Part shown: piece by piece, positions 19,560 through 26,731 of the stretch
How positions within the stretch are numbered: the first letter of the stretch is position 1
Layout of the letters: each line of letters starts with the position of its first letter
Virus record (IMG/VR): IMGVR_UViG_3300034418_002960
Location: 1 to 36,862 of that record
From: a virus
Length of the DNA stretch: 36,862 nt
Strand: one strand, 5' to 3'
The notes under the pieces: model-generated
What the model saw: the letters and a program-made list of their open reading frames with translations, nothing else
Told to the model about the DNA's origin: nothing
Databases searched by the model: none
Position numbers and translations under genes: made by a program

Positions 19560-20180
19560 ATGACAGAACATAAGAATATATACGCCGCTCTTATGGCAGC
19601 ACAACAAGAGTTCGGGCAAGTGACCAAGGGCAGCACAAATCCAGCGTTTAGGAGCAAATACGCGGATCTAGCAGATGTCGCTAATGTGGTAATCCCAACC
19701 CTGTCCCGTCAGGGCGTTGCGGTTCTGCATTATATGACAGGCGAGAATCTCTCAGTCATGCGGACGGAGTTCGTTCATGCTTCATCCGAAACTAAAGTAA
19801 ACTGCGACATTCCGCTAATCGTGGATAAGCAAAACATGCAGGGCATGAAAAGCGCCACGACATATGCCAAACGCATTGGCCTCGAAAGCCTGTCTGGCAT
19901 TGCCCCAGAAGATGATGACGGCAATCAAGCTGCCAAAAGCCCGCCCAAGCCTGAGCCGAAGAAACCAGCAGGCCCACCCCGTGAGGCCGTAGATGCGGCT
20001 AAGGCCAGCCTGTTCAACGCCGACAGCCTCGACGCCCTCAAGGCAATCTGGATGGACCTCCCTGCGCCTGTCCGCGCCATGCAGGACGTAGAGCGGGCCA
20101 AGGATGCGCGCAAAGCTGAACTGGAAACTGCGCCGCCATCCGCGAAAACAGAAATCGATGATGAAATCCCGTTTGGATAA
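19560..20180 (+). CDS. erf: ERF-family single-strand annealing protein
   Basis: 206 residues from ATG at 19560 (GGAGAG 5 nt upstream); in-frame codons back to 19494 would run into the promoter. The ERF core shows NIYAALMAAQQEFGQVTKG, FRSKYADLADVANVVIPTL, GVAVLHYM and the final MKSATTYAKRIGLESLSGI. A Pro/Lys linker and a helical segment follow. It promotes annealing of homologous ssDNA, for circularisation or recombination. The C-terminus ends DDEIPFG, an SSB-tip-like peptide. Confidence 0.93.
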   Translation: MTEHKNIYAALMAAQQEFGQVTKGSTNPAFRSKYADLADVANVVIPTLSRQGVAVLHYMTGENLSVMRTEFVHASSETKVNCDIPLIVDKQNMQGMKSATTYAKRIGLESLSGIAPEDDDGNQAAKSPPKPEPKKPAGPPREAVDAAKASLFNADSLDALKAIWMDLPAPVRAMQDVERAKDARKAELETAPPSAKTEIDDEIPFG

Positions 20181-20190
20181 GGAGAGAACC

Positions 20191-20859
20191 ATGACCAACG
20201 ACACCAGCTACACCTACCTTGATATAGAAACCATTCCATCGCAATCGCCGGAACTGCTGGAGCGGTTCAAGGCCGAGGTGACGCCACCGGGCAATATCAA
20301 GAAACAGGAGAGCATTGACGCTTGGATGGTCGAAAATGCCGAAACAAAAGCGCGCGAAATGATGGCAAAGACCAGCTTTGATCCCGCGCATGGCCATATC
20401 TGCACAATAGCATGGGCCAAGGACAATGGCCGAGTGGAACTGTCACATGCGGCGAGCATTGAGGACGAAGCCGATCTTTTGCGCGACTTCTTCGATGACA
20501 TTGATCAGTATCACAGCACGACATTTGTTGGCCACTACGTCGGCGGCTTTGACTTGCGGTTCATTCTTTGCCGAGCCGTTGTTCTTGGCATTCCAATTCC
20601 CCGCTCTATCCCGCGTGACCCGAAACCTTGGTCCGACCGCATCTTTGATACGATGACTGCATGGGCTGGCCAGAAAAGCACGATTAGCATGGATAACCTA
20701 TGCGATGCGCTTGGCCTTGAGGGCAAAGGCGACTTTGATGGCTCAATGGTGGCCGAGGCTTGGGCCAATGGCGAACATCAAAAGATTGCGGATTACTGCG
20801 TCCAAGATGTTGAGCGGACGCGGGCAATTCATCGCCGCTTTATGGCAGTAGGATGGTGA
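20191..20859 (+). CDS. 3'-5' exonuclease, DnaQ/PolB-exo-like (DEDDy)
   Basis: 222 residues from ATG at 20191 with AAGGAGAG upstream. Catalytic acids are visible: Asp11 and Glu13 in TYLDIETIP, Asp121 in VGHYVGGFDLRF, and Tyr202-x3-Asp206 in DYCVQDVERT, i.e. the DEDDy subclass (predicted PolB-like 3'-5' exonuclease family, DNA_pol_B_exo2). It may generate single strands for the ERF protein encoded just upstream or proofread. No polymerase gene is present, so it acts alone. Confidence 0.9.
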   Translation: MTNDTSYTYLDIETIPSQSPELLERFKAEVTPPGNIKKQESIDAWMVENAETKAREMMAKTSFDPAHGHICTIAWAKDNGRVELSHAASIEDEADLLRDFFDDIDQYHSTTFVGHYVGGFDLRFILCRAVVLGIPIPRSIPRDPKPWSDRIFDTMTAWAGQKSTISMDNLCDALGLEGKGDFDGSMVAEAWANGEHQKIADYCVQDVERTRAIHRRFMAVGW

Positions 20860-20861
20860 CC

Positions 20862-21035
20862 ATGACAGACGAACAGATCATCGCTGAGTTTGAACGCATC
20901 GAGGCCGCCGCAAACAAAACGCCGCAAGGGGCTGACCATGAGCATATCCTGCATGTGGTCACGGCTAAGAGCGGGCGCGACTTGTCTTATGTTCGCCGCC
21001 TCATCATCGACAACACATTCACGACACCCAACTGA
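20862..21035 (+). CDS. Small protein, unknown
   Basis: 57 residues from ATG at 20862, two bases after the exonuclease stop. Mostly helical (MTDEQIIAEFERIEAAANKT), with a possible HTH in VVTAKSGRDLSYVRRLIID. The same arrangement, a short HTH-like protein between exonuclease and GapR-like genes, suggests a regulatory or DNA-binding accessory. No family recognised. Confidence 0.65.
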   Translation: MTDEQIIAEFERIEAAANKTPQGADHEHILHVVTAKSGRDLSYVRRLIIDNTFTTPN

Positions 21036-21047
21036 AAGGCACCAACC

Positions 21048-21296
21048 ATGACCGAAGAAAGCTACCGCGTGACCGCCGAAGAACTGCGTCAAATCGTTGA
21101 ACGCTTCGAGCGGCTAGAAGCCGAGAAACAGGACATAGCAGATCAGCAGAAGGAGGTAATGGCCGAAGCCAGGGCGCGCGGATACTGCACCAAAACCCTG
21201 CGCCGCATCATTGCTGACCGCAAAAAGTCGCCAGATGATCTGGCCGAGGAAGAGGCGGTTCTGGAAATGTATCGCCAGGCTTTGGGGCTTGCGTGA
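21048..21296 (+). CDS. GapR-like protein (DUF2312)
   Basis: 82 residues that fit the family along their whole length: AEELRQIVERFERLEAEKQD, MAEARARGYCTKTLRRIIAD and EEEAVLEMYRQALGLA. GapR of Caulobacter is a nucleoid protein that clamps overtwisted AT-rich DNA and helps topoisomerases ahead of forks. The phage copy may support its own replication or interfere with the host's. The family is almost restricted to alphaproteobacteria and their phages, which is the best host clue in the window. Confidence 0.92.
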   Translation: MTEESYRVTAEELRQIVERFERLEAEKQDIADQQKEVMAEARARGYCTKTLRRIIADRKKSPDDLAEEEAVLEMYRQALGLA

Positions 21297-21688
21297 TGCC
21301 CCACACCGTCATTCTGCGCAGTCAGGCCCAGCGCCAGCTTGCGCACGAATATATCGACAAGGCCCCGGCAAACGCCGTTGTGACCATTAAGGAGGAGGCG
21401 CGTAATCTTGACCAGAACGCGCGCCTCTGGGCCAGCTTGTCAGATATAAGCCGAGCCAAGCCAGAAGGTCGATGCCATACACCCGAGGTCTGGAAGTGCC
21501 TATTCATGCAAGCCTTAGGCTATCAGTCGCGCTTCGAAATGGGCTTAGACGGCCAGCCGTTTCCTGTCGGCTTTTCATCATCGCGGCTATCAAAGCGTGA
21601 GTTTGCCGACCTGATAACCATCGTCCAGGAATATGGAGATCGGCATGGCGTGGCGTGGTCTGAGCCAAACCCATATGAAACCGCATGA
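21296..21688 (+). CDS. ninB: NinB-like recombination protein
   Basis: 130 residues from ATG at 21296 (TGATG overlap with the GapR-like stop). NinB signatures: ARNLDQNARLWASLSDISR, a CHTPEVWKCLFMQALG segment, SSSRLSKREFADLITIVQEY and a C-terminal GVAWSEP. In lambda NinB (Orf) is a recombination mediator that loads recombinase on SSB-coated DNA. It fits the neighbouring ERF, exonuclease and HNH genes as a recombination module. Confidence 0.93.
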   Translation: MPHTVILRSQAQRQLAHEYIDKAPANAVVTIKEEARNLDQNARLWASLSDISRAKPEGRCHTPEVWKCLFMQALGYQSRFEMGLDGQPFPVGFSSSRLSKREFADLITIVQEYGDRHGVAWSEPNPYETA

Positions 21689-22056
21689 AACGATCACCTT
21701 TAAAACGCAAAACCCGCCTCAAGCCTGTGTCTGACAAGAAACGCGCATACAGGGCCAGTGAGGCCGGTCAAGCTGCTCTGGGCTATATGCGGGCGGTGAA
21801 GCAGCTTCCTTGCGTTATATGCGCCGCTCCGCCGCCATCAGATGCGCATCATTGCATCCATGACCGGCACAGCAGCGCCAAACGAAGCGACTACGACACG
21901 ATACCTCTTTGCAAGGCGCATCATCAAAACGGTCCTGATGCCATCCACAATGGCCCGAGAACATGGCGCGAGAAATACGGACCAGATCACGGATATATTG
22001 ATCGCGTAGCCGAGGCGGTGAAGTGTCTGTTTGGAATTGACCGGCCCTTGTCGTGA
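21685..22056 (+). CDS. HNH nuclease-like protein (DUF968/Ref-like)
   Basis: 123 residues. A basic N-terminus (MKRSPLKRKTRLKP) precedes LPCVICAAPPPSDAHHC with Cys43, Cys46 and His55-His56, then TIPLCKAHH with Cys76 and His79-His80, and NGPDAIHNG. The Cys pattern and HH...H order are those of small beta-beta-alpha-metal nucleases in lambdoid recombination regions (DUF968, P1 Ref). It starts in ATGA overlap with ninB and ends the first + unit. Confidence 0.85.
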   Translation: MKRSPLKRKTRLKPVSDKKRAYRASEAGQAALGYMRAVKQLPCVICAAPPPSDAHHCIHDRHSSAKRSDYDTIPLCKAHHQNGPDAIHNGPRTWREKYGPDHGYIDRVAEAVKCLFGIDRPLS

Positions 22057-22128
22057 TGGGCTGCCGATGATAGGCTTGGCCCCAGCATTTCATGCTACTG
22101 TTCTCTCCCTGTCGCTTGACAGCACCTA

Positions 22129-22157
22129 GACCTGGTTTCGTGCCGGGTCTTTTTTTT
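22129..22157 (+). terminator. Strong intrinsic terminator
   Basis: GACCTGG (22129-22135) pairs with CCGGGTC (22143-22149) around a 7-nt loop, with one G-T pair, followed directly by eight T (22150-22157). It lies after the HNH gene and ends the recombination transcript. Confidence 0.93.
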
Positions 22158-22168
22158 GTCGAATTGTG

Positions 22169-22197
22169 TTGACACTTGTGTGGGCTTTTCGTAATGT
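22169..22197 (+). promoter_or_regulatory. Sigma70-type promoter of the second + unit
   Basis: A perfect -35 TTGACA (22169-22174), 17-nt spacer and TAATGT (22192-22197) as -10, placed between the terminator and the first gene at 22240. The flank GTTGACACT is identical to the one in the switch region at 19493, suggesting common recognition. Confidence 0.65.
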
Positions 22198-22239
22198 CAT
22201 CTCAAGGGCAGGGAAGCCCGAGACAAAGGAGAGAGACAG

Positions 22240-22443
22240 ATGACATACGAACAAGCCGAAGACTTTTACATCTCACAGATTGACCTTCAGCATGGCAAAG
22301 AATTTGCTGCTGCGGTTGGTCGATTTCAGGAAGGTTTTCTTGCCGACCGTGTGACCGACGACATTGACGAAGCATTTCGCCGCGCTGTTGATTGCGCCAA
22401 ACGAAGCCTGATGATCATCAAGATCAAGGCAGGTGTAGCATGA
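22240..22443 (+). CDS. Small protein, unknown
   Basis: 67 residues with AGGAGAG upstream, the first gene after the promoter at 22169. Helical, with MTYEQAEDFYISQIDLQHG at the N-terminus and a C-terminal helix RRAVDCAKRSLMIIKIK. No family was recognised. Being first in an early unit it could be a host-interaction protein, but that is only a guess from position. Confidence 0.65.
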   Translation: MTYEQAEDFYISQIDLQHGKEFAAAVGRFQEGFLADRVTDDIDEAFRRAVDCAKRSLMIIKIKAGVA

Positions 22444-22637
22444 ACAAAGGACACGGCAGCCCGTATGATCGAGGCACCGCTGACAGCTACTATTCCCGAC
22501 CGCCGCAGCCGCACAAGTGGCTGGATGACATTGGCCGGAACAGGGAAGAAAACCTGACCGAAGCCGAGAAGGTGGAATACTGGATTGGCTATTCAGACAG
22601 CGAAGAAAACGGCGCAAAGAAGGACTGGGGCGAATGA
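22440..22637 (+). CDS. Conserved small phage protein, GSPYDRG motif
   Basis: 65 residues from ATG at 22440, in ATGA overlap with the gene before. The segment GSPYDRGTADSYYSRPPQPH followed by LTEAEKVEYWIGY and KKDWG near the end recurs in small proteins of many phages. I know the pattern from other phages but not its function. Gly/Tyr-rich N-terminus, acidic C-terminus. Confidence 0.75.
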   Translation: MNKGHGSPYDRGTADSYYSRPPQPHKWLDDIGRNREENLTEAEKVEYWIGYSDSEENGAKKDWGE

Positions 22638-22729
22638 GGATCAAGGATATAATCATCGACACGCTGACGCTGGTGGCACTCGTCGGCACCATCTACGGGC
22701 TGGGGCTGATAGCGTGGGCGGTGCAGTGA
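22634..22729 (+). CDS. 31-residue membrane peptide
   Basis: A very short gene in ATGA overlap upstream and GTGA overlap downstream with the methyltransferase. After MRIKDIIIDTL it is a single hydrophobic segment (VALVGTIYGLGLIAWAV), so one membrane-spanning helix. AAGGA lies 9 nt before the ATG. It may be a functional small membrane protein or serve coupling to dcm. Confidence 0.6.
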   Translation: MRIKDIIIDTLTLVALVGTIYGLGLIAWAVQ

Positions 22730-23691
22730 AACTGCGGGTTCTTGACCTATTCAGCGGCATTGGCGGCTTTAGCCTTGGCCTTGAGCGGACAGGCGGGTTT
22801 GAGACCGTTGCTTTCTGCGAATACGAACCATTTCCACGCGCGGTTCTGGCGAAGCACTGGCCTAACGTGCCATGCTTTCCTGACGTGCGAGAACTGAAAG
22901 GATCAGACATTGACGGATCAGTTGACGTTATTTGCGGCGGATATCCATGCCAGCCTTTCTCCACAGCCGGGCAGCGACGAGGCAAGGAAGATGACCGCCA
23001 CCTCTGGCCAGAATTTAATCGGCTCGTGGCTGAACTCAGGCCCACTTGGGTCATTGGAGAGAATGTTGCTGGGCACATCAGCATGGGCCTCGATGACGTG
23101 CTTTCTGACTTGGAGGGACAAGGTTACGCCTGCCGAGCGTTTGTTATTCCAGCTTGCGCCGTTGACGCCCCGCACAGACGAGACAGAGTTTGGGTTGTGG
23201 CCCACTGCAAGGGCTGCGGACGGGAAGGGGGCAGTAAATCCATCCGCAGCGCAAAAATCTGTAGAGAGGGGTTTCAGCCCGAATTTACCAGAAGTGGTAA
23301 CTGCGCAGAATGCGGGGCTGTGGCCGACGCCTCGCAGTTGCAGTGCAATGACAGCAAACATAACGAGAAAAACAGCGCAAAGGACAATGGGCAACCTAGA
23401 GGAGCGAGTTGCGAAGACTTTATGGCCGACGCCGACCACCAGGGACTACAAGGGCGGGCGGAAACCAGAAGCCTTAGAGGCCAGCGGACGGGGGGCAACG
23501 AACAGCCTGAACGATGCGTTGACTTGCCAAGGGCAGCATGGCTCCCTGAACCCAACGTGGGTCGAGTGGCTCATGGGGTTCCCCGAAGGGTGGACAGACT
23601 TAAAGCCCTCGGAAATGCCGTTGTCCCGCAAATCCCCGAAATGATCGGATACGCAATATTGGAGAGTTACAATGACCGCCGCCCAACTTGA
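22726..23691 (+). CDS. dcm: C5 cytosine DNA methyltransferase
   Basis: 321 residues from GTG at 22726. Motif I LDLFSGIGGFSLGLE, motif IV CGGYPCQPFSTAG with catalytic Cys75, motif VI GENVAG (Glu112), motif VIII APHRRDRVWVVA (near 150) and the C-terminal motif X LGNAVVPQIP are all intact, so the enzyme should be active. The region between VIII and IX is short and low-complexity and reads like a decayed or unusual target-recognition segment. Most of the gene (residues about 62-306) is overlapped by a second gene in the +1 frame. Confidence 0.93.
   Translation: MKLRVLDLFSGIGGFSLGLERTGGFETVAFCEYEPFPRAVLAKHWPNVPCFPDVRELKGSDIDGSVDVICGGYPCQPFSTAGQRRGKEDDRHLWPEFNRLVAELRPTWVIGENVAGHISMGLDDVLSDLEGQGYACRAFVIPACAVDAPHRRDRVWVVAHCKGCGREGGSKSIRSAKICREGFQPEFTRSGNCAECGAVADASQLQCNDSKHNEKNSAKDNGQPRGASCEDFMADADHQGLQGRAETRSLRGQRTGGNEQPERCVDLPRAAWLPEPNVGRVAHGVPRRVDRLKALGNAVVPQIPEMIGYAILESYNDRRPT
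22910..23644 (+). CDS. Overlapping gene inside dcm, +1 frame
   Basis: 244 residues from TTG at 22910, with AAAGGA seven bases upstream, fully inside dcm. Start MTDQLTLFAADIHASLSPQP, then GPLGSLERMLLGTSAWASMT, CFLTWRDKVTPAERLLFQLA, two LWPTP repeats (GLWPTPRS, LWPTPTTRDYKGG) and a closing LNPTWVEWLMGFPEGWTDL. I know the same pattern from hypothetical proteins next to or over phage methyltransferase genes. Function unknown. It has two Trp-Pro-Thr-Pro turns and no nuclease or AdoMet motif. The long open frame, own RBS and recurring signature argue for translation; dcm conservation could partly explain it. Confidence 0.65.
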   Translation: MTDQLTLFAADIHASLSPQPGSDEARKMTATSGQNLIGSWLNSGPLGSLERMLLGTSAWASMTCFLTWRDKVTPAERLLFQLAPLTPRTDETEFGLWPTARAADGKGAVNPSAAQKSVERGFSPNLPEVVTAQNAGLWPTPRSCSAMTANITRKTAQRTMGNLEERVAKTLWPTPTTRDYKGGRKPEALEASGRGATNSLNDALTCQGQHGSLNPTWVEWLMGFPEGWTDLKPSEMPLSRKSPK

Positions 23692-23773
23692 AGACATCAT
23701 CGACGCAGCATTCGTCAAGGTTCTGGGCGTGCTGCCGAATGTTCCACGCTGGCACAAGGACGAAGACAAATGA
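23672..23773 (+). CDS. 33-residue protein
   Basis: Short gene overlapping the dcm end by 20 nt. GGAGAG lies 6 nt before the ATG. Sequence MTAAQLEDIIDAAFVKVLGV then LPNVPRWHKDEDK. Helical. Unknown function; accepted because of the RBS and the ATGA overlap with the next gene. Confidence 0.6.
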   Translation: MTAAQLEDIIDAAFVKVLGVLPNVPRWHKDEDK

Positions 23774-23922
23774 ACCAGCCGCATTTTGTGAACCGCAGCC
23801 GCACGAATGAAATGACATTCTCGGAGAAGATAATCGCGGGCCAGGCCAGATCGCTTGCCAATCGCGAAGATGTAAAGATAACGCTGCCAAAGGCACCTTG
23901 GGAAGAGGAGAAAACCCAATGA
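23770..23922 (+). CDS. 50-residue basic/acidic protein
   Basis: A short gene in ATGA overlap with both neighbours. Sequence begins MNQPHFVNRSRTNEMTFSEK and ends KAPWEEEKTQ. No family recognised; tight coupling on both sides makes it likely to be translated. Confidence 0.6.
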   Translation: MNQPHFVNRSRTNEMTFSEKIIAGQARSLANREDVKITLPKAPWEEEKTQ

Positions 23923-24131
23923 CCGAATATCACGAAGCACTGCACGAACTGAACGACGCCATCTACCGCGTCATTCGTCTCGCCAGCAACGAGGATGGTG
24001 CGCCTGTGGCGGCTCTGAAAGAGATTGCAGCCGACATCGACTGCATCATTGACCACGGCTGCACCCGCCGGGCGTTTGAAGATGCCAAGACGCTCTATGA
24101 GGGCGCGAAGCTGGCGGGGTTGGTGGGATGA
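23919..24131 (+). CDS. Small helical protein, unknown
   Basis: 70 residues from ATG at 23919, in ATGA overlap. Almost entirely helical (MTEYHEALHELNDAIYRVIR, then LKEIAADIDCIIDHGC). An RBS GAAGAGGAG lies within the preceding gene. No family recognised. Confidence 0.65.
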   Translation: MTEYHEALHELNDAIYRVIRLASNEDGAPVAALKEIAADIDCIIDHGCTRRAFEDAKTLYEGAKLAGLVG

Positions 24132-24140
24132 TCCGCTGCG

Positions 24141-24377
24141 ATGAGTGACTGGCAAGAGATCGTGGATGCGGCCCTCGAACGCCATAAGGATGGCGGATCA
24201 CGGTTGGCGTCCCTCGTGCTGTCGGCAGATGACCACGTAGGGGAACTGGAGGCCAAGCTGGCGAAGGCGGTGGAGGCGCTTGAGGATATCAGAGACATTG
24301 CCGTCTTTTCTGAAGACGTAGCGTTTTACGAGATGCTTGCATCGAAATGTTTAAACGAACTGAAAGGAGAGAAGTGA
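24141..24377 (+). CDS. Small helical protein, coiled-coil
   Basis: 78 residues. The middle (ADDHVGELEAKLAKAVEALE) has heptad spacing of a short coiled coil, and acidic residues dominate. No clear RBS, so it may depend on reinitiation from the preceding gene. Function unknown. Confidence 0.6.
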   Translation: MSDWQEIVDAALERHKDGGSRLASLVLSADDHVGELEAKLAKAVEALEDIRDIAVFSEDVAFYEMLASKCLNELKGEK

Positions 24378-24589
24378 TGAGTAAGTTCTGGACCTTCCTT
24401 ATCCTGACCTACCCCGTGCTGGGCGAGGACGTTGAAAGCGTCATTATGTTCCCCAGCATGAAAGAGTGCGGCGATGCCATGCCGGCGATCTACGAGCCGA
24501 TACACAAGGTGTATCCTGACAGCATGGCCCAGTGCCACGAAACGAGAGTGTTGTCATCGTCGTTAAGGCCCAAAAGTCGCGACGATTGA
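24377..24589 (+). CDS. Small protein with hydrophobic N-terminus, possibly exported
   Basis: 70 residues from ATG at 24377, in TGATG overlap, AAAGGAGAG five bases upstream. The N-terminus MSKFWTFLILTYPVLG is short but hydrophobic. The middle has FPSMKECGDAMPAIYEPI and a second Cys (AQCHETR), a spacing that would allow one disulfide outside the cytoplasm. It is the last + strand gene. No family recognised. Confidence 0.6.
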   Translation: MSKFWTFLILTYPVLGEDVESVIMFPSMKECGDAMPAIYEPIHKVYPDSMAQCHETRVLSSSLRPKSRDD

Positions 24590-24600
24590 CCAACTAAATT

Positions 24601-24697
24601 CGCCGCATTAATGTGGCGATGCGCACGGGCCACAGCTTTCATCTTGCGAGGGACAGGCCGACAGCGGAGATGGACGCGCTACCGAATGCGCCACATT
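24601..24697. other. Inverted-repeat cluster at the convergent boundary
   Basis: A near-perfect 18-bp palindrome (24601-24618, one mismatched pair) contains AATGTGGCG (24610-24618), whose reverse complement recurs at 24689-24697. This region separates the + and - units and has no clear gene. It may bind a protein or take part in termination. No strong U-run was seen on either strand. Confidence 0.45.
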
Positions 24698-24843
24698 CAC
24701 CGGCTCGTGCGCTTCAATTCAGTCGCCAAATCAAGGATGATTTGCGGGAAGACGCGCGGTTCAAATTCCGCCACCCGCTGGCCGTCACGATAAATGACCA
24801 GCTTGCCATCCTGGATGACGGCAAGATCAATATGCTCAATCAC
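24697..24843 (-). CDS. 48-residue protein after the phosphoesterase
   Basis: GTG at 24843 overlaps the stop of the phosphoesterase gene as GTGA. The sequence (MIEHIDLAVIQDGKLVIYRD, then FEPRVFPQIILDLATELK) is a tidy small alpha/beta domain, more protein-like than the longer + strand frame over the same bases. It is the last gene of the minus-strand unit. No family recognised. Confidence 0.6.
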   Translation of the reverse strand: MIEHIDLAVIQDGKLVIYRDGQRVAEFEPRVFPQIILDLATELKRTSR

Positions 24844-25943
24844 AATGCCACTCGAACCCGACTAATTTCACCGCGCTCTTTGTCATAAGTAATGGCTTGC
24901 ATTTCAGCCTTACCAGAATAGGCATGTGATGCAGCATAAGCATCAGGCGCGGTAATAGCGCGAAGCTGCTCCCAATGCACTCCACCTATATCTTGGCTTT
25001 TATGATGATGCAGATGCCCGCTGAATAAATATCTGTATTTTGTGCGACCCCACATTTCTGGCCACTTGTCAGCCAAATACATGACCAGCCTCTCGGCCTT
25101 CGCTTTGTCACCGTGACATGATGCAAGTAGAACCTTGCCCCACTCCATGACAAAAAATTCACCCGGTTTACGTTGCACTGTAATGCGCGGCTCGTTGCGA
25201 TAGCGTTCCGCTAAAGCAAACAAGACCGCCAGATAGGCCGTCTCATCATGGTTGCCGCGCTGCACAACAAGCGTGACTGTTTTATGCTTTGCCAATAATG
25301 CTTCGGCTGTGGCGGCCAATAGACCAATTCCAACGTCTAGAATTTTGTGGAACCGTCCATCTGCATCCAATTGATGGCGACTATGATAGGTCTGATTTGT
25401 CTGATCGTTTACATGCAGCCAGTCGCCCATAGCGACAGCCACGGCTTGCTCCGATGCCGGAGTTGATGACATTGCCTTAGAAATTCCTGACCGTATTCTT
25501 TCTGAGGAAATTTTCAGGTCATAACTTTCTCCGGTTTCTTGTCCCCAAGATAACTGCCCAATATGGGCATCTGGCATTGGATATAGCGTCAACAGATCGG
25601 CTATTGTGTCTTCTGGCATCTGCACCGCCAGAATAGGGTCGATGTCTATAAGAGCCTCTCTTATACGCTCTGCAACATCTTCCGGCTGTGCTTGTTGCTT
25701 TGGCTGCTGAAAATATAAACTAGCACCTTCAGTCTTAACCCAGCCGGAATGCAAAATGCCAATATCCTGCATTCCAGCTTCAATCATTGCCTCTTTTACC
25801 GCTGGATCGGTTTGTTCATATAATTTCGCACGTTCTAGCCTGCTGCGTAGAGAGCTACGCGAAATACCAAGTGCATCGGCAGCCAGTCTTTGGCTACCAT
25901 GCTTTTTCATGGCCTCAAGAGCTTCCCGCTGCTCTGGGGTCAT
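24840..25943 (-). CDS. HTH-calcineurin-like metallophosphoesterase
   Basis: 367 residues. Residues 1-40 form a Fis-like HTH (AMKKHGSQRLAADALGISRS). The phosphoesterase core has the full metal-binding set: Asp125/His127 in YPMPDAHIG, MGDWLH, QRGNHDET, SCHGD and SGHLHHHK. Such proteins occur in many phages as predicted nucleases or phosphodiesterases. Here it sits downstream of the lysis genes and exported protease. Its substrate is unknown; DNA is suggested by the HTH domain but not shown. Confidence 0.88.
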   Translation of the reverse strand: MTPEQREALEAMKKHGSQRLAADALGISRSSLRSRLERAKLYEQTDPAVKEAMIEAGMQDIGILHSGWVKTEGASLYFQQPKQQAQPEDVAERIREALIDIDPILAVQMPEDTIADLLTLYPMPDAHIGQLSWGQETGESYDLKISSERIRSGISKAMSSTPASEQAVAVAMGDWLHVNDQTNQTYHSRHQLDADGRFHKILDVGIGLLAATAEALLAKHKTVTLVVQRGNHDETAYLAVLFALAERYRNEPRITVQRKPGEFFVMEWGKVLLASCHGDKAKAERLVMYLADKWPEMWGRTKYRYLFSGHLHHHKSQDIGGVHWEQLRAITAPDAYAASHAYSGKAEMQAITYDKERGEISRVRVAL

Positions 25944-25948
25944 TGATC

Positions 25949-26731
25949 TTACTCGTCTTCGTCTTTTGAAGCCATGCAGACCTCATGGCTTTCAGCATGT
26001 TCGTCCCAGACTTCGGACCAGCAGTTGTCGTCCAGAAACTGCCTGACCTGAAAGAACGGAATGGCCAAGCCGAGATGCCCGTTGCCCGGAACGCCCGCCG
26101 CCGGAACGCCAATCAGTTCGCCGCTTGCGTTGAACAACGATCCGCCGCTGTTGCCGCCTGTTATGCCTGCGTCGATCTGGATGAATGGCACCTCGGCCTC
26201 GGCCCAGCTAACACGAAACATGCGATTGGTTGACGAGATCACACCGCGCGTGACCGTGGCATCGAGGCCCAAAGGATTGCCAACAACGGTCACCTCCTCG
26301 CCGCGCTGCACCACATCCCCGGCAAATACCGTGGCGGCGATGCTATTGAGCAGATCGGCTCGCACTTGCAGCAGGGCCAGATCGCTTTCCTGCCACCGCG
26401 CAACAAGCTGGGCCTTGTATCTGGCCTCACCGACAAGGCGGTAGTCCTCATACATCCGCTGCGACACATCCATGTCGCGCAGTTCCTCAACCTGCTTCTG
26501 GACTACCGTGCCGTCATCCTCGACCACTTCTTTGCGCCGCTTGATGACCGCATCACCGATGCAGTGATGATTGGTCAGGATAAGCCGATGCTCCAGCGAG
26601 ATCAGAGTGCCGCTGCATCCGCGCCCGACGATAAAGTTGGCGCTGTTTATGGTCTTGTTCATGTCTTCGACGGTCCAAGCCCAGGCTGGAGCGGCGAGAC
26701 ATGCGGCTAAGGCCGCTATGCGCATGATCAT
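25949..26731 (-). CDS. Secreted trypsin-like serine protease (HtrA-type fold, no PDZ)
   Basis: 260 residues with a signal peptide (MIMRIAALAACLAAPAWA, cut after Ala18). Catalytic His56 in LILTNHHC, Asp117 in QESDLALLQV and Ser195 in DAGITGGNSGGSLF are all present, in the chymotrypsin/HtrA arrangement. GVISSTNRMF and VVGNPLGL are also HtrA-like, but no PDZ domain follows. Cys39/Cys57 could form a disulfide. It would act in the periplasm or outside. It lies between spanin and phosphoesterase genes. RBS AAGGGGGT. Confidence 0.9.
   Translation of the reverse strand: MIMRIAALAACLAAPAWAWTVEDMNKTINSANFIVGRGCSGTLISLEHRLILTNHHCIGDAVIKRRKEVVEDDGTVVQKQVEELRDMDVSQRMYEDYRLVGEARYKAQLVARWQESDLALLQVRADLLNSIAATVFAGDVVQRGEEVTVVGNPLGLDATVTRGVISSTNRMFRVSWAEAEVPFIQIDAGITGGNSGGSLFNASGELIGVPAAGVPGNGHLGLAIPFFQVRQFLDDNCWSEVWDEHAESHEVCMASKDEDE

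Follow-up and report, generated by a model that had tools for sequence, protein, structure and literature searches.

Does the cytosine methyltransferase gene (dcm) of this virus hold a second gene in its +1 frame and, if so, what does the second protein do? The locus lies in IMG/VR record IMGVR_UViG_3300034418_002960, of which positions 1 to 36,862 make up the window. We regard it as very probable that the two frames encode a split C5-cytosine methyltransferase (C5-MTase), in which Dcm is the catalytic alpha chain and the overprinted beta chain carries motif IX and probably target recognition.

Organization of the overlapping genes

The features of the locus are as follows:

22726..23691, plus strand: alpha (dcm), 321 aa from a GTG start, a C5-cytosine methyltransferase that carries motifs I-VIII and X
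22744..22770, plus strand: motif I, DLFSGIGGF, SAM binding, 5' of the overlap (translation, alignment A2)
22895..22897, plus strand: in-frame TGA closing the beta frame upstream; the frame opens at 22898 (sequence)
22897..22902, plus strand: AAAGGA, Shine-Dalgarno-like, 7 nt upstream of the beta TTG (sequence)
22910..23644, plus strand: beta, the +1 frame inside dcm, 244 aa, TTG start (phrog_1008, purifying selection, 112-row alignment A3); its layout is a conserved N-terminal part, LWPTP units, then motif IX
22939..22962, plus strand: motif IV, GYPCQPFS, with the catalytic Cys, doubly coded (translation; near-invariant in A2)
23059..23067, plus strand: motif VI, ENV, doubly coded (translation; invariant in A2)
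23102..23164, plus strand: beta residues 65-85, a predicted beta hairpin, CFLTW...LLFQL (AlphaFold block means 72-89 pLDDT)
23176..23199, plus strand: motif VIII, RRDRVWVV, in which the first LWPT of the +1 frame begins (translation, A2)
23195..23446, plus strand: three LWPTP-type units of beta, starting at 23195, 23318 and 23420 (translation)
23212..23541, plus strand: slack stretch of alpha from motif VIII to X, near-neutral and predicted to be disordered (dN/dS, pLDDT)
23546..23602, plus strand: LNPTWVEWLMGFPEGWTDL of beta, the counterpart of C5-MTase motif IX (motif IX profile; position before motif X)
23608..23634, plus strand: motif X of alpha, LGNAVVPQI (alignment to motif X of M.HhaI)

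Profile searches matched alpha to phrog_363 (E = 7e-84) and to PF00145 (E = 2.4e-39), the latter match being limited to residues 3-163. Its PDB matches by Foldseek and HMMER are M.HhaI-like up to motif VIII and, weakly, at motif X. Profile positions 288-311 of alpha align with M.HhaI 295-318 (motif X) with a score that is weak when taken alone, and the residues L295, G296 and P301 of this region are invariant in A2. In the AlphaFold model the catalytic domain (motifs I-VIII) and the motif X helix are confident, and residues 168-291 are mostly disordered (pLDDT <50 at 168-267 and 272-283). As judged from this disorder and a near-neutral dN/dS, alpha has no folded target-recognition domain between motifs VIII and IX, and neither the motif IX profile nor the M.HhaI alignment found motif IX in the alpha frame of the window. 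An earlier note on this DNA had described Dcm as a protein of 321 residues with all catalytic motifs intact; its length and motifs I, IV, VI, VIII and X are as described, but motif IX is missing.

The 244-residue +1 frame of that note, and the AAAGGA that it placed seven bases before TTG, were both located (22910-23644 and 22897-22902). Beta matched phrog_1008 over residues 2-234 (E = 4.7e-38), and all 112 members of the beta family match the same profile. PHROG_1008 is labelled DNA methyltransferase, yet beta has no catalytic motif, and the overlapping gene is the probable source of the label. Searches of Pfam, NCBIfam and PADLOC with beta gave no match, nor did hmmsearch against the PDB or a Foldseek fold comparison of its AlphaFold model. 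Modelled alone, beta gave a poor AlphaFold model (pTM 0.25), of which the hairpin at residues 65-85 is the best-predicted section, with W68 invariant in A3; beta may fold only together with alpha. The number of LWPTP units differs among beta homologues.

Of the neighbours of dcm at 20104-26731, those upstream include an exonuclease (phrog_403), a NinB/Orf recombination mediator and an HNH-like protein. Downstream, on the minus strand, are a DNA repair exonuclease (phrog_704) and a gene with a protease match (phrog_9683).

A counterpart of motif IX in the beta frame

The motif IX pattern of C5-MTases, R.LTPRECARLQGFPD.F, is missing from dcm, and the C-terminal end of beta reads LNPTWVEWLMGFPEGW. 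The DNA at 23546..23602 is read as LNPTWVEWLMGFPEGWTDL in the beta frame and as EPNVGRVAHGVPRRVDRL in the alpha frame. Since a short motif IX HMM was too weak, it was replaced by a position-specific profile with shuffled controls. This monomer-derived profile picks the LNPxWVEWLMGFPxGW site in at least 94 of the 112 beta proteins (shuffling its columns gives 4%), and its mean score on LNPxWVEWLMGFP of beta is 8.2 versus 3.5 ± 0.9 for the shuffled controls (0/200). With ~8 bits in beta versus 27-43 bits in monomers, the site is recognized by position and pattern, the single-sequence score not being significant. In loci where both motifs occupy one frame, the motif-IX-like site directly precedes motif X. 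Beta carries a motif-IX-like element.

The same division holds beyond the window. None of the 202 regular overlap-type loci tested has motif IX in alpha, where the best score is at most 11.5 bits, against the 27-43 bits of monomeric C5-MTases. All of 40 monomeric enzymes have motif IX in frame, and none of them has the beta frame.

Rearranged relatives and the catalytic-domain tree

Natural rearrangements give the strongest hint of function. In one set of relatives (L125, L174, L176, L198, L242, L245, L263 and L270) alpha stops soon after motif VIII, and motifs IX and then X follow in the +1 frame; in L270 the two are read as LNPDWVEQLMGLPVGWTQLKGAKQGDNRIDRLRLLGNGVVPQ. In another (L225, L239, L258 and L290) both motifs belong to the alpha frame, and the +1 frame retains its N-terminal part and LPTP units. 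Motifs IX and X thus move between frames among relatives. Because these few relatives with motif IX in alpha keep the N-terminal part of beta, the role of beta may differ from, or exceed, the supply of motif IX.

In a tree of the catalytic domain every overlap-type alpha falls in a single clade (SH-aLRT 95), next to the monomeric enzymes, and the layout in which motif X is in beta was reached at least five separate times; the tree columns include doubly coded sites, and some attraction inside the overlap-type clade is possible.

An alternative to a split enzyme, which we think improbable, is that beta is a separate accessory protein, such as a regulator, a nuclease or an anti-restriction factor, which merely overlaps dcm, with Dcm working alone. 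The want of any Pfam, NCBIfam, PADLOC, PDB or fold match for beta would suit such a protein. Against it stand a Dcm that has neither motif IX nor a constrained recognition region, the motif IX counterpart in beta, the several shifts of motif X into the beta frame, and the finding that no beta occurs without alpha among the loci examined. The earlier note suggested that the second protein could be a specificity or regulatory partner of Dcm, and as regards a specificity partner it points the right way: beta carries the motif IX that Dcm lacks and the sole constrained sequence of the VIII-IX stretch, and the second subunit of a split enzyme fits better than a regulator.

Some further loci depart from the common arrangement. 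Midway through L126 and L136 alpha and beta exchange frames, so that the C-terminal parts lie in each other's frame, through either rearrangement or sequence error. Alpha of Mycobacterium phage Llama (L405; gp74, gp75) is annotated as two genes, with a break after motif VI and resumption in another frame, which may reflect either a genuine split or a frameshift. The coliphages ev129 and phiEc4 (L407, L408) form a distinct subgroup, with a YYNE.D..A...LR stretch before alpha motif I and beta in another frame.

Selection and start signals of the +1 frame

Selection was measured on 36 disjoint pairs, with changes sorted by their effect in both frames. The dN/dS of the +1 frame was 0.39 (CI 0.28-0.6) in the catalytic part of the overlap, 0.07-0.09 between motifs VIII and IX, and 0.08-0.10 at motifs IX-X; the corresponding values for dcm were 0.12, 0.64-0.86 and 0.12-0.15. 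Change at third positions of dcm was 0.26-0.32 beyond the overlap; within it, the value was 0.145 in the catalytic part and 0.06 in the VIII-IX stretch, where the first position of dcm, which is the third of the +1 frame, is the most changed (0.26). Changes silent in both frames showed no reduction (0.39-0.70). This pattern across the parts indicates that both proteins are selected and that in the VIII-IX stretch only the +1 protein is constrained. Purifying selection is thus seen in both frames and not in that of dcm only. The contrast in the VIII-IX stretch (0.07-0.09 versus 0.64-0.86), together with the disorder predicted by AlphaFold, bears out the earlier idea that the low-complexity segment of Dcm is constrained by the other frame.

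Shine-Dalgarno matches of at least 5 nt precede 65% of homologous beta starts, compared to 7% of control +1-frame starts; some of these bases double as dcm K-E-L codons, so that the start evidence is supportive rather than independent. Both results bear on a different way of making the product, by programmed frameshifting from alpha into a fused chain (motifs I-VIII, then the C-terminal part of beta with motif IX) with no internal initiation. The AquI-like relatives, in which alpha ends just past motif VIII and the +1 frame continues with motifs IX and X, lend this some plausibility. However, the N-terminal part of beta, which lies 5' of any such shift, is under purifying selection (the 0.39 above), the Shine-Dalgarno sequence and start codon are conserved, and a stop lies just upstream in the window and in many homologues, which makes frameshifting very unlikely.

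Distribution and reality of the overlap

With beta as query, tblastn at E 1e-5 found matches in at least 131 phage records, among them Paenibacillus, Mycobacterium, Salmonella, Klebsiella and Escherichia phages. Pattern scans yielded over 561 candidates in viruses and 348 on genome contigs of Proteobacteria, Firmicutes, Bacteroidetes, Acidobacteria and other groups. In each of the best 80 viral loci the beta frame overlaps dcm in the same phase, and 205 of 216 loci have the regular overlap in constant phase, the other 11 being split or rearranged. An assembled chromosome of a Roseovarius MAG (OX638333.1) contains five copies of the pair (L082-L086), each with 54% identity to the query and the same layout; they may be repeated prophages, or else an artefact of the assembly.

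A scan by the dcm motif G[YF]PCQPF..AG, which is blind to the +1 frame, found the beta frame in 75 of the 80 viral loci listed, a proportion that is not the fraction among all viral C5-MTases, since the motif favours overlap-type dcm. Those of the other five listed loci that were read are monomers or contig-end fragments. Of the loci that a script had flagged as 'no beta' or 'beta no IX', ten were read by eye and all ten have the +1 frame; the flags are artefacts of the script, and its counts were left out. Among the motif-scan loci and the loci read by eye, no overlap-type locus was found in which the +1 frame is broken and dcm is kept.

Whether the +1 frame might be a mere shadow, open and similar only through dcm conservation and codon bias, was examined by recoding. 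When the window dcm's own codons are permuted, 2.4% of the permutations keep the +1 frame open, and the overlap partly covers conserved catalytic sequence, both of which would allow for a shadow frame. On the other hand, synonymous recoding of dcm with window or uniform codon usage left the frame open in 0 of 20,000 trials, and codon recoding across 200 homologous loci gave a mean open fraction of 0.003. The longest +1 run has a median of 63.5 codons in monomeric dcm versus 248 in overlap-type dcm, the +2 frame being alike in the two. Beta is, moreover, most conserved where dcm is not, and the dN/dS of the VIII-IX stretch refutes a shadow frame, to which we give practically no credence. With selection in both frames, conserved start signals and a constant phase (80/80; 205/216), the reading of the locus as two genes in one stands, and beta is a real, selected and conserved protein.

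Comparison with known systems

The closest precedent is M.EcoHK31I (YGGCCR). Lee, Kam and Shaw reportedly found in 1995 that its small gene lies inside the large one in a different frame. Motifs I-VIII and X are on one chain of this enzyme and motif IX is on the other (PMC3404938). Compared by motif layout, the window pair is alike, with motifs I-VIII and X on the large chain and motif IX on a separate small one, and it most likely falls in this known class of two-chain C5-MTase. The target-recognition domain of M.EcoHK31I has been predicted, but not demonstrated as a defining feature, in the larger subunit (PMC3404938). In contrast, the VIII-IX stretch of the window alpha is near-neutral and predicted to be disordered, and recognition should therefore be in beta. 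No restriction endonuclease partner was recognized among the window neighbours scanned, a difference from M.EcoHK31I. No recognizable relative of EcoHK31I was found in plasmids with alpha as the query, or in E. coli genomes with the ev129 pair.

M.AquI (CYCGRG) is also a two-chain C5-MTase; it is broken after motif VIII, in the variable region, and its small chain holds both motif IX and motif X (PMC3404938), whereas motif X of the window is in alpha. AquI-like layouts, but overlapping ones, are found in L174, L242 and other relatives. Monomeric C5-MTases such as M.HhaI resemble alpha in their catalytic domain and motif X, and differ in having motif IX and the target-recognition domain in the same chain and frame.

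A hidden frame in a phage methylase also has a precedent in ShiLan, where an HNH endonuclease is inserted out of frame (PMC11855218), but a mobile insertion of that type is hardly credible here, as none of the 112 beta proteins has an HNH match, the overlap spans the catalytic core common to all C5-MTases rather than an insert, and the distribution tracks the dcm clade.

Existing annotations have touched on the pair. Gene SHELLY_56 of Paenibacillus phage Shelly, the 'g55 internal gene', corresponds to this beta gene and lies within a gene for a DNA-cytosine methyltransferase; it was annotated without a function. The annotation of phiEc4 draws the inner gene alone, and in both phages the pair went unrecognized. 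In the literature searched, which covered few subscription papers, no account was found of this phage family as an overlapping heterodimer.

A proposed split methyltransferase and its possible function

In the split C5-MTase that we propose, the Dcm frame would provide alpha, a catalytic domain that binds SAM and contains the catalytic Cys and motif X, but neither a folded target-recognition region nor motif IX. Beta would be initiated inside alpha, in the +1 frame, from its own ribosome-binding site, and would provide motif IX and, through its conserved N-terminal part and LWPTP units, presumably target recognition; we infer from this arrangement that beta sets the specificity. Both chains would come from one mRNA and, being made at one place, may assemble into the active enzyme as a heterodimer. 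The assembled enzyme would then methylate phage DNA at a specific site, for which the likeliest purpose may be escape from host restriction.

At the level of the family, we consider it likely that overprinted two-subunit C5-MTases of phages and prokaryotes form a large clade of single origin, in which the VIII-IX stretch of the annotated Dcm is coding slack, specificity resides in the other frame, and motifs IX and X have been exchanged between frames. Hundreds of phages and bacteria share the overprinted arrangement, and gene lists usually give one half or mislabel the other. Its breadth, the mislabelling in databases (PHROG_1008), the single origin and the motif exchange between frames appear under-appreciated, and this case of overprinting is much larger and better defined than the reachable literature describes.

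If this reading is true, hundreds of phage and prophage Dcm annotations represent half an enzyme, and cloning the annotated frame alone would yield an inactive or unspecific protein, since target specificity would reside in the frame that is lost or mislabelled by annotation pipelines. The family would also offer overlapping genes, long, deep and of single origin, whose two products are parts of one machine, and its visible changes of motif frame would make it possible to test how overprinting and split enzymes evolve.
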